Below are positions 13,018-36,975 of a stretch of 64,000 nucleotides of DNA, piece by piece. Numbering within the stretch: position 1 is the stretch's first letter; each line of letters opens with the position of its first letter. This stretch comes from Natrinema salaciae. Its GTDB lineage: Archaea > Halobacteriota > Halobacteria > Halobacteriales > Natrialbaceae. The translations under genes and the position numbers were made by a program. The DNA is taken from contig NZ_FOFD01000003.1 of NCBI RefSeq assembly GCF_900110865.1, positions 558,001-622,000 on the forward strand, in the 5' to 3' direction. A model generated the notes under the pieces. The model was not told the origin of the DNA, searched no databases, and saw nothing but the letters and a program-made list of their open reading frames with translations.

Positions 13018-13090
13018 CGCCCGAGGCGGGATTTGAACCCGCGTCACGACCGTGACAGGGTCGTATGATGGGCCACTACACCACCCGGGC
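13018..13090 (-). tRNA. tRNA-Asp (GTC), copy 1
   Basis: The 73-base gene includes the G discriminator. Acceptor arms are GCCCGGG and CTCGGGC (one G-U pair); the anticodon arm is CGACC-CTGTCAC-GGTCG, giving anticodon GTC; the T arm has GGGTTCAAATCCC. No intron and no encoded CCA. Identical to the copy at 13356-13428. Confidence 0.97.
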
Positions 13091-13355: not shown

Positions 13356-13428
13356 CGCCCGAGGCGGGATTTGAACCCGCGTCACGACCGTGACAGGGTC
13401 GTATGATGGGCCACTACACCACCCGGGC
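13356..13428 (-). tRNA. tRNA-Asp (GTC), copy 2
   Basis: Base-for-base identical to copy 1 over all 73 positions, including the short 3' flank that reads GCTTTT on the minus strand. Anticodon GTC. The 265 bases between the copies are dissimilar to those flanking copy 2 apart from the promoter box, so the pair is a gene duplication kept as two separately promoted genes. Confidence 0.97.
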
Positions 13429-34620: not shown

Positions 34621-35202
34621 TCAGTTCAGCACGACGATCGCGACCCCCGAGAGGACGATCACGCCGAGGATGTCGCAGACGTTCGTGACGACGGGGATCG
34701 TCGTGTCGTCGGGGTCTAGCCCCTGCGTGTAGGAGACGTAGGTCGCGACGAGACTGAGGACGATCGCGAGGACGGCGAGCGACATGCCGCTGACCACAGA
34801 GATGAGCATGAGATCGAGCAACGCCATCGGTTCGGCGATGACCCGGCCGACGACCCAGGCCGCGACGCCAAGCGCGGAGAAGATCGTCGCCGCCAGTCCC
34901 ATGATCGCCAGTACGTTGGTCCACAGCACTTCGTCCCGGGGATCGAACTCGAGCAGTCCCAGGTGGAGCCGCGTCGAGAGCCGCGAGGAGAGAATCGCGC
35001 CGAGGTTGCCGCCCATGCCGATCATCACTGGGACGAGCACGAGCAGCGTCGGATTTCCGAGGTAGGTCTCCTCGAGTTCCTCGAGGACGTAGCCCGACCC
35101 CATCTCGAGTAGCGAGAGGACGAGCAGGATCGGGAACATGGTGCCGACGATGCTGCTGATCGACCAGGTGTCGAGCGGGTCGTCGGGGTCCGCCGCCGCC
35201 AT
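34621..35202 (-). CDS. MgtE-type Mg2+ transporter membrane domain, second subunit
   Basis: A 193-residue membrane protein equal to the MgtE transmembrane domain alone, lacking the N domain and CBS pair of bacterial MgtE. It has five hydrophobic segments, the signature LLVLVPVMIGMGGNLGAILS and the terminal motif GLDPDDTTIPVVTNVCDILG, where the Asp residues correspond to the metal path. Its ATG overlaps the stop of the upstream subunit gene by one base (TGATG). The pair probably forms a heterodimeric channel. Confidence 0.9.
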   Translation of the reverse strand: MAAADPDDPLDTWSISSIVGTMFPILLVLSLLEMGSGYVLEELEETYLGNPTLLVLVPVMIGMGGNLGAILSSRLSTRLHLGLLEFDPRDEVLWTNVLAIMGLAATIFSALGVAAWVVGRVIAEPMALLDLMLISVVSGMSLAVLAIVLSLVATYVSYTQGLDPDDTTIPVVTNVCDILGVIVLSGVAIVVLN

Positions 35203-35777
35203 CAGAAGACACCTCCGACGACGGTGATCGCGACGAAGAGGAAGACGACGCCGAAGATGTCGCCCAGCGTGGTGACGATCGGCCCGATGAGGTTGTCGGG
35301 GTCGAGCCCGTACTCGTAGCTCGCGAAGACCAGCGCCAGCAGCCCGAAGATCAGCGTGACCGAGGTGAGGACGCCGGAGACCAGCATGATCCCGACGAGT
35401 TCGACGAGCCTGGCCGACTCGCGCCCGAGGACCTGCAGAATGCCCCACGAGAGGACGGCGATGACGATCGAGATGCTGATCCCGTTGACGAAGGAGGCCC
35501 CGACGGCGTTGACCAGCCGCCGGTCCCACGAGAACTCCGGATCGATCATCCCCTGGTGCAGTCCGCTCGAGATGCGCGCCCCCATCGCGCCGTAGACGTT
35601 CCCCCGGGTCGCGAGAAAGGCGGGAAGCAACAGCAGTAGTCCGGGAAACCGCTCGAATCCCTCGGTCATCCCCTCCGAGCCGAGGACCGATCCCGCGAAG
35701 ATCCCGCCGACGAGGCTGACCGCGAGAATCGGGAGTGACTCGCGGTAGATACGCCACGCCTCTTGGCGAGCCTCCAT
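35202..35777 (-). CDS. MgtE-type Mg2+ transporter membrane domain, first subunit
   Basis: A 191-residue paralogue of the next gene: GLLLLLPAFLATRGNVYGAM matches the MgtE TM2 signature and YGLDPDNLIGPIVTTLGDIF the terminal metal-path motif. No soluble N or CBS domains. Translation of the two halves is coupled through TGATG. The absence of the Mg-sensing cytosolic domains makes the nearby PhoU/TrkA-C protein a natural candidate regulator. Confidence 0.9.
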   Translation of the reverse strand: MEARQEAWRIYRESLPILAVSLVGGIFAGSVLGSEGMTEGFERFPGLLLLLPAFLATRGNVYGAMGARISSGLHQGMIDPEFSWDRRLVNAVGASFVNGISISIVIAVLSWGILQVLGRESARLVELVGIMLVSGVLTSVTLIFGLLALVFASYEYGLDPDNLIGPIVTTLGDIFGVVFLFVAITVVGGVF

Positions 35778-35926: not shown

Positions 35927-36337
35927 TCAGAGGGGGGTGACGGCGACGAGTCCCCAGGCCAGGCCGATCGCCGCGAGCGAACAGGCGAGGTTGGCCCCGG
36001 CGTTCCCGACCGCGAGGGCCCGATCGCCGCGCTCGTACAGCCGGACCGTCTCGACCGAAAACGAGGAGAACGTCGTAAACGAGCCGCAGATACCAGTTCC
36101 GACCAGTTCGATCGTCGACTCGCCCGCGCCCGCGAAAACCGCGAGACCGAAGACGAAACTGCCCACGACGTTGACCGCGAACGTCGCAAGCGGGAGTCGT
36201 TCGCTCGAGACCCGAGCGACCCGCTGGGAGACCCAGTATCGGAGGACTGCGCCGATCGCGCCGCCGGTGCCGACGACGTGGGCCGGTTCGGGATCGACGG
36301 TGACGACGGCCGCGAGCAGTGCAGCGGTCACACTCAC
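35927..36337 (-). CDS. crcB: Fluoride channel CrcB/Fluc, second subunit
   Basis: A 136-residue four-helix membrane protein. Family marks are GTGGAIGAVLRYWVSQRV in helix 1-2 and GICGSFTTFSSFSVE in helix 3, with the Phe residues that line the fluoride pores. Its ATG overlaps the stop of the upstream crcB (ATGA). Two different crcB genes in one operon indicate a heterodimeric channel. Confidence 0.95.
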   Translation of the reverse strand: MSVTAALLAAVVTVDPEPAHVVGTGGAIGAVLRYWVSQRVARVSSERLPLATFAVNVVGSFVFGLAVFAGAGESTIELVGTGICGSFTTFSSFSVETVRLYERGDRALAVGNAGANLACSLAAIGLAWGLVAVTPL

Positions 36338-36741: not shown

Positions 36742-36754
36742 GGCTGGGTGGGCA

Positions 36755-36856
36755 GGTAGGGACCGTCAGCCGATCGACGCTCGGCCCGTGCTGGCGTCGG
36801 TGCCAGCCGCGGTCCGGCGTTCCTCCGGCGGTTGGATCGGGCGGGCCCCATCGCCC
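36755..36856 (-). ncRNA. Fluoride riboswitch (crcB motif)
   Basis: On the minus strand the RNA starts GGGCGATGGGGCCCGCCC, nearly the same as the start of the well-studied Thermotoga fluoride riboswitch, then AACCGCC, an extended GC-rich stem with CTGGCACCGACGCCAG, and GGCTGACGGTCCCTACC at the 3' side. The pseudoknot GGGGCC with GGTCCC pairs fully with one G-U. It sits directly before the crcB pair. The extended P2-type stem is longer than in the minimal motif. The mode of control (translation or termination) cannot be read. Confidence 0.9.
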
Positions 36857-36975
36857 GGTTGCGGGGGCGTTCTCACAGGATCGAGATGAGCGTTGCGAAA
36901 GTCGCGCCACGGTGACGCCGCGGACCACGAAACGGAAGGAAAAGACCCAAGGTTAGACTGCCTCTAAACCGATTC

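Follow-up and report, generated by a model that had tools for sequence, protein, structure and literature searches.

This locus, on the minus strand of a 64 000 nt stretch of Natrinema salaciae DNA (here called the window), raises the question of whether the short leader of two adjacent crcB genes is a fluoride riboswitch and, if it is, how such an RNA could act upon a start codon in front of which, in the 17 nt linker (36742..36758), no Shine–Dalgarno sequence was found. The crcB RNA motif class is known in both bacteria and archaea, as its description states (Weinberg et al., 2010; PMC2864571). Our reading of the sequence and of its relatives is that the window almost certainly contains a fluoride riboswitch aptamer, the parts of which are given in Table 1 together with the neighbouring features.

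Table 1. Features of the crcB1–crcB2 leader and genes in the window
Feature	Position	Strand	Evidence or remark
Predicted fluoride (crcB) riboswitch aptamer	36757-36856	minus	15 nt upstream of crcB1–crcB2 pair
P1 hairpin GGGC/GCCC; loop = presumed pocket nucleotides GAUG + 5' pseudoknot strand	36839..36856	minus	sequence, alignment, pair counts
Pseudoknot 5' strand GGGGCC	36844..36849	minus	GGGGCC:GGTCCC in 74/92 leaders; pair counts
Junction AAC + P2 5' strand (AACCGCCGG)	36825..36833	minus	alignment, pair counts
GC-rich P2 hairpin extension	36774..36824	minus	Rfam alignment; fold -36.3 kcal/mol, z -3.1
GGCUGAC = P2 3' strand + conserved UGA; proposed partner swap with CAGCC before start codon	36765..36771	minus	alignment, register analysis
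Pseudoknot 3' strand GGUCCC	36759..36764	minus	leader parsing, pair counts
17 nt linker; last five bases CAGCC (36742-36746) = proposed anti-aptamer strand	36742..36758	minus	
Promoter-like box CGCAACGCTCAT	36886..36897	minus	same-form box recurrent upstream in family loci
crcB1, first Fluc/CrcB subunit, 135 aa	36334..36741	minus	PF02537 45.5 bits, cut-off 32.9
crcB2, second Fluc/CrcB subunit, 136 aa; GTG start overlaps crcB1 end	35927..36337	minus	PF02537 88.3 bits

The hallmarks of the crcB motif that an earlier note on this DNA had claimed for the minus strand are indeed present. Read on that strand, GGGCGATGGGGCCCGCCC (36839–36856) is followed by AACCGCC and then by GGCTGACGGTCCCT, which ends at 36758; the layout of the whole aptamer (36856–36757) is GGGCGATGGGGCCCGCCC-GATCC-AACCGCCGG-[51 nt]-CGGCTGACGGTCCCTA, the 51 nt part stopping 1 base before CGGCTG. 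On the 3' side there follow 15 nt with CAGCC as their end, and then the ATG of the 135-residue CrcB. Every pair of the P1 helix, with its GGCGAUG loop, and of the six-pair pseudoknot forms in the window, and GGGGCC (36844–36849) is fully pairable with GGTCCC (36759–36764), as had been claimed, with one G–U among the six pairs. P2 follows the AAC[C/U]G junction and is itself followed by CUGA; the window forms the P2 pairs G29–C48, C30–G47, C31–G46 and G32–C45 (numbering of alignment A3, described below). The nucleotides which we take to form the pocket, from their positions in the Thermotoga petrophila crystal structure, namely the A and U of GAUG, the UGA after P2 and the U after the pseudoknot, are all present.

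At the Rfam gathering threshold, RF01734 had no match at the locus, in searches of the window and of the genome to which it belongs. When 301 bases were searched permissively, it ranked first, with 20.5 bits (E 0.0015) against a cut-off of 34 bits, which is a database threshold and not a structural feature, and its alignment to the window reached only the P2 3' strand, where it stops because of the insertion in P2. The low score arises because P2 carries a hairpin extension of approximately 50 nt. Of the first 30 relatives, 20 were given to RF01734; 17 of these matched at E 0.5 or better, and the five above the cut-off (L007, 53.9; L023, 36.5; L009, 36.2; L005, 35.4; L001, 34.7 bits) all have short P2 loops, the remaining 15 comprising 12 matches below the cut-off and three relatives with none. 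A covariance search had been named beforehand in the earlier note as its refuting test: by the Rfam threshold the formal outcome goes against the note, but relatives with the same core and a short P2 pass. A clade model built from 26 relatives with the window left out (R2), and hence a fair test of it, scored the window at 53.6 bits (E 6.5e-14), the next match in the window reaching 11.0 bits; a second model (R1) includes the window, and its 54.5 bits there are by construction. In a sample of 116 genomes of the class, RF01734 placed 10 above its cut-off and matched 26 at E 0.001, versus 33 matched at E 0.001 by R1 (the weakest, at 26.8 bits, doubtful), the P2 insertion making Rfam overlook much of the clade.

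The likeness to RF01734 extends to P1 with its GGCGAUG loop, the AACCGCC junction and P2 strand, the GCUGA strand, the 6 bp pseudoknot and the position in a crcB leader. The differences are that the consensus pseudoknot is of the GGAGUU/ACUCC type and that of the window's clade GGGGCC:GGUCCC, that the base after GCUGA is C instead of U (77/77 family loci), and that the P2 hairpin extension takes the window below the cut-off. A score under the cut-off, along with the real decay of aptamers in relatives such as L022, L094, L105 and L122, would suit a riboswitch relic that has decayed or lost its function. Against this, no core position conserved in the alignment and none of the six pseudoknot pairs is missing from the window, which also scores well with R2, and we consider a relic very improbable.

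The 5' half of the motif was found in 46 of 125 genomes of the family, Natrialbaceae, and a reversed control pattern in 0/125; several of the other genomes carry AACTGCC or another variant instead. The remaining 79 genomes were searched with the CrcB1 protein (tblastn), and 73 matched, at 75 places, of which 70 were taken (including L091–L120); G029, G003, G004, G005 and the weak second match of G036 were left out, and L160 has no row in the tblastn table. Of 129 crcB1 leaders, 92 were parsed as intact (77 from the family; 15 from other families, which were chosen by the 5' pattern and are not an unbiased sample). The parser required at least five of the six pseudoknot pairs, the sole locus with P1 and CUGA to fail this being L018, and L019 was counted as intact despite an insertion. 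A full aptamer precedes crcB1 in at least 77 of the 125 Natrialbaceae genomes, and the aptamer is conserved in 24 genera of the family as well as in other families; crcB1–crcB2 lay downstream in 29 of the first 30 loci. GCTGA is invariant in a 27-sequence alignment, and the U after the pseudoknot recurs in 75/77 family and 15/15 other-family loci. A looser, class-wide pattern (211/391 genomes) found mostly coding matches, e.g. GCGATGGACCTCGC; it served only for picking aptamer-like matches by eye and is not a riboswitch count.

The pseudoknot itself varies. Among the 92 leaders the types were GGGGCC:GGTCCC (74), GGAGTC:GACTCC (10), GGGGTC:GACTCC (4), GGGGCC:GGCCCC (2), GGGGGC:GCCCCC (1) and GGCGTC:GACGCC (1). 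In alignment A3, which consists of the 26 of these leaders that are distinct and have a short P2, 97.7 % of cells pair, versus 91.8 % in shuffles and at most 59.7 % when the alignment is slid by 1–3 columns; in the pseudoknot and in P1 every cell pairs (100 %). Changes on both sides occur at two of the six pseudoknot pairs, 10–56 (GC/AU/GU/CG) and 12–54 (CG/UA), and at three P2 pairs. Over the whole structure, 32 cells are changed on both sides versus 9.0 in shuffles, with 0/500 shuffles as high, although the division between the two main types of pseudoknot follows that between families and so represents few independent events, which calls for caution on the cell counts and not on the compensated types.

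The distance from P1 to the P2 3' strand ranges from 16 to 190 nt in the 77 family loci (median 58). The unusually long GC-rich stem of the earlier note is real in the window (P2 segment –36.3 kcal/mol, z –3.1 versus shuffles) but is a peripheral and variable part; 44 P2 inserts of 45 nt or more had a mean z of –1.67, with 30 below –1 and five above 0. The suggested tie of this stem to life in high salt does not stand, extended P2 being common but variable and short-P2 members occurring within the same family. The minimum-energy fold of the window leader, in which pseudoknots are not representable, has an unexceptional energy (z –0.86) and lacks the aptamer structure; the P1 strand pairs with the linker instead. 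Such an ordinary folding energy might be expected of a GC-rich structure arisen by chance, an explanation that is hardly credible, being refuted by the empty reversed-pattern controls, the compensatory changes, the R2 score and the conservation over 24 family genera and other families.

The crcB1 start codon (36741–36739) lies 17 nt past the pseudoknot and 13 nt past the end given in the earlier note, which had correctly placed the element 13 bases before the first crcB gene and had thought this closeness notable; it is the rule in the clade, where the linker between pseudoknot and start codon measures 11–21 nt in 74/77 family loci (the exceptions in all 92 leaders are 34, 63 and 96 nt). Upstream, a box like CGnAAnnCTCAT ends 28–33 nt before the aptamer in 52/77 family loci and is found anywhere within 90 nt in 59/77, compared with 0.8 % of shuffled upstream regions. 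If this box is the BRE/TATA region and the start position follows the general rule, transcription would probably begin no more than a few bases from the aptamer, and the leader would be little more than aptamer and linker. The best-studied bacterial platforms are transcriptional, according to one account (PMC11077080). An aptamer that acts on transcription by termination or antitermination, as in Bacillus cereus, is nevertheless improbable here, the distance to the start being so short and the linker of the window being C-rich with no U-run. Control at translation is highly probable.

We hypothesize that the 5' leader of the crcB1–crcB2 mRNA is a fluoride riboswitch of the translational ON type, working through an exchange of GGCUGA(C) with (G)UCAGCC, and we regard this proposal as probable. 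In cells without fluoride, GGCUGA(C) would leave P2 and the pocket and pair with the (G)UCAGCC that adjoins the AUG (in the window, CAGCC), and the resulting hairpin would bar the ribosome from a start site lacking a Shine–Dalgarno sequence. Fluoride (with Mg2+, by analogy) would lock P1, P2 and the pseudoknot; with GGCUGA(C) then fixed in P2 and the pocket, the C-rich 17 nt linker and the AUG would be free, both channel subunits would be made and fluoride would be exported. We infer the ligand, the transcript start and the direction of switching. Shine–Dalgarno-like 4-mers occur in just 5/92 leaders, so that the usual bacterial masking of this sequence is inapplicable to most of them.

New here is a conserved motif, CAGYY, which immediately precedes the start codon and is complementary to the aptamer strand. 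CAG[CT][CT] abuts the start codon in 55/77 intact family leaders and 7/15 other-family leaders versus 3/266 background genes of the window's genome, these being the first ATG of long high-GC3 ORFs in 400 kb plus the window, some of them not true starts. Leader positions –5 to –1 are 79–89 % conserved, and positions –10 to –6 at most 64 %. CAGYY complements the aptamer strand GGCUGA(C) by 5–10 bp: in the aptamer register, at least five contiguous pairs are available in 60/92 leaders and 6–10 in 28/92, with at least five in 6/266 background genes, these tests having been made mostly on the loci in which the motif had first been seen. In 18 of the 24 genera, half or more of the members have five or more pairs. 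In L070, CCGTCAGCC before the ATG is the full complement of GGCTGACGG, and in the long-linker leaders L023 and L074 CAGCC still stands at the AUG. Covariation cannot test the strand exchange because GGCUG is nearly invariant.

CAGYY is missing from 8/15 other-family leaders and 22/77 intact family leaders; the latter include five from the genus of the window, which have TCGCT in its place. The 23 non-intact close orthologues were split by eye into 11 with aptamer remnants and 12 without; CAGYY persists in 6/11 of those with a damaged aptamer and 3/12 of those that have lost it (intact versus lost, Fisher p 0.003, relatedness uncorrected). It is absent from 14/14 distant crcB genes labelled as lacking an aptamer, a list that includes L158, with a decayed one; among four later other-family leaders it is found in L186 and L187 and not in L181 or L188. 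A possible, though rather unlikely, alternative is a true fluoride riboswitch with another control of the start, in which the ligand-bound pseudoknot, or pairing of P1 with the linker in the apo state, gates the ribosome by position, CAGCC being an inherited local initiation context. The tightly kept linker length, the pairing of linker and P1 strand in the minimum-energy fold of the window, the survival of CAGYY beside damaged aptamers and the five TCGCT loci would all fit such gating, whereas the rarity of CAGYY before other genes, its absence from the 14 distant crcB genes and the upstream extension of the match in the aptamer-complementary register in 28 leaders (6–10 pairs) argue against it.

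The proposed exchange of strands was also examined thermodynamically in 75 of the 77 family leaders (two duplicates dropped). In pseudoknot-free ensembles the aptamer strand paired with the start-adjacent bases with a mean probability of 0.34 versus 0.02 for shuffled linkers (median 0.03; 75 leaders), above the shuffled value in 41/75 leaders and not above it in 34/75; the window's own probability was 0.27. When the aptamer was locked, accessibility of the start region rose from 0.45 to 0.57 (0.53 to 0.59 with shuffled linkers; Wilcoxon p 0.008), folding energies at 37 °C and in dilute salt being a poor guide to molar KCl. For the strand exchange, which is a hypothesis, the comparative support is good, and on balance we incline to the specific pairing of GGCUG with CAGCC. 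We see an even prospect for the broadest form of the proposal, a natural haloarchaeal translational switch free of a Shine–Dalgarno sequence, in which the ligand-pocket strand GGCUGA(C) would sequester a conserved CAGCC abutting the AUG on a minimal platform of 11–21 nt, and which would operate in a molar-salt cytoplasm throughout Natrialbaceae and in part of the other haloarchaeal families, largely missed by Rfam.

The fluoride-responsive riboswitch of Thermococcus kodakarensis is described as archaeal and presumed translational (PMC8241225), like that of the window; unlike it, the Thermococcus RNA stands before TK0513 and not directly before crcB (PMC4247193). In Haloferax volcanii, synthetic switches for theophylline keep the AUG within a hairpin until they bind their ligand, and they work in haloarchaeal salt (PMC8241225); these are artificial and hide the Shine–Dalgarno sequence too, whereas haloarchaeal crcB leaders are mostly without one. 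In searches of the open-access PMC literature, we found no description of a haloarchaeal fluoride riboswitch, nor of the clade variant with GGGGCC:GGUCCC, C after CUGA, extended P2 and start-codon strand. The locus is a conserved candidate, its carriers are related to haloarchaea that are amenable to genetics, and its proposed start-codon pairing is concrete and mutable; it makes testable the idea of an archaeal riboswitch that controls translation without a Shine–Dalgarno sequence in near-saturated salt.

Natural losses and a repeat insertion offer comparisons. In L018 (1597–1678), and at the matching place in L019, a palindromic repeat of approximately 80 nt, with 36 nt arms that are 78 % complementary, interrupts the aptamer, with GGCTGA on one side of it and CGGTCCC on the other. 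Matches to the MITE-like family of this repeat number 21 in G070, 17 in G073 and 7 in G078, three genomes of the genus, and 0 in the genome of the window. The insertion is a natural disruption of the riboswitch, and the two pseudoknot strands of L019 can still pair (GGGGGC:GCCCCC). In L022, L094, L105, L109, L111, L118, L121, L122 and L132–L136 the aptamer has decayed or been lost, independently as it seems, beside an intact crcB1, and these loci provide natural comparisons for constitutive expression. In L082 (1500–2380) the fluoride aptamer is present twice, at a distance of 415 bp; the first copy precedes a short membrane-protein-like frame, the second crcB1. In L007 (1492–1556) a textbook aptamer (53.9 bits) precedes a frame with a CrcB-like beginning that tblastn did not match to crcB1; probably the switch here is intact and the gene after it a broken crcB.

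The two crcB genes of the earlier note are borne out, with PF02537 scores (45.5 and 88.3 bits) that exceed the cut-off. As regards known Fluc/CrcB channels, crcB2 matches solved Fluc chains, the best being 5a40 (E 2.6e-10), and crcB1 had no relative among solved structures at E 0.001; the two products probably form a two-subunit channel. Among named organisms, the relatives closest in identity to crcB1 come from Natrinema and Haloterrigena species. Two adjacent half-length MgtE-type membrane genes lie at 34621–35777, the first recognized by Pfam PF01769 and the second from its translation only. On the other side of the aptamer is a divergently transcribed cation-efflux (CDF) gene, whose start is adjoined by a conserved palindrome TTTAGA..TCTAA (36953–36968; 63 of 75 family loci examined) that looks like the operator of a metal regulator. 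Elsewhere in the window, two tRNA genes (13018–13090 and 13356–13428, 265 bp apart), with identical Rfam scores, are the sole Rfam matches at the gathering threshold; their anticodon loop reads GUC, which makes them tRNA-Asp.
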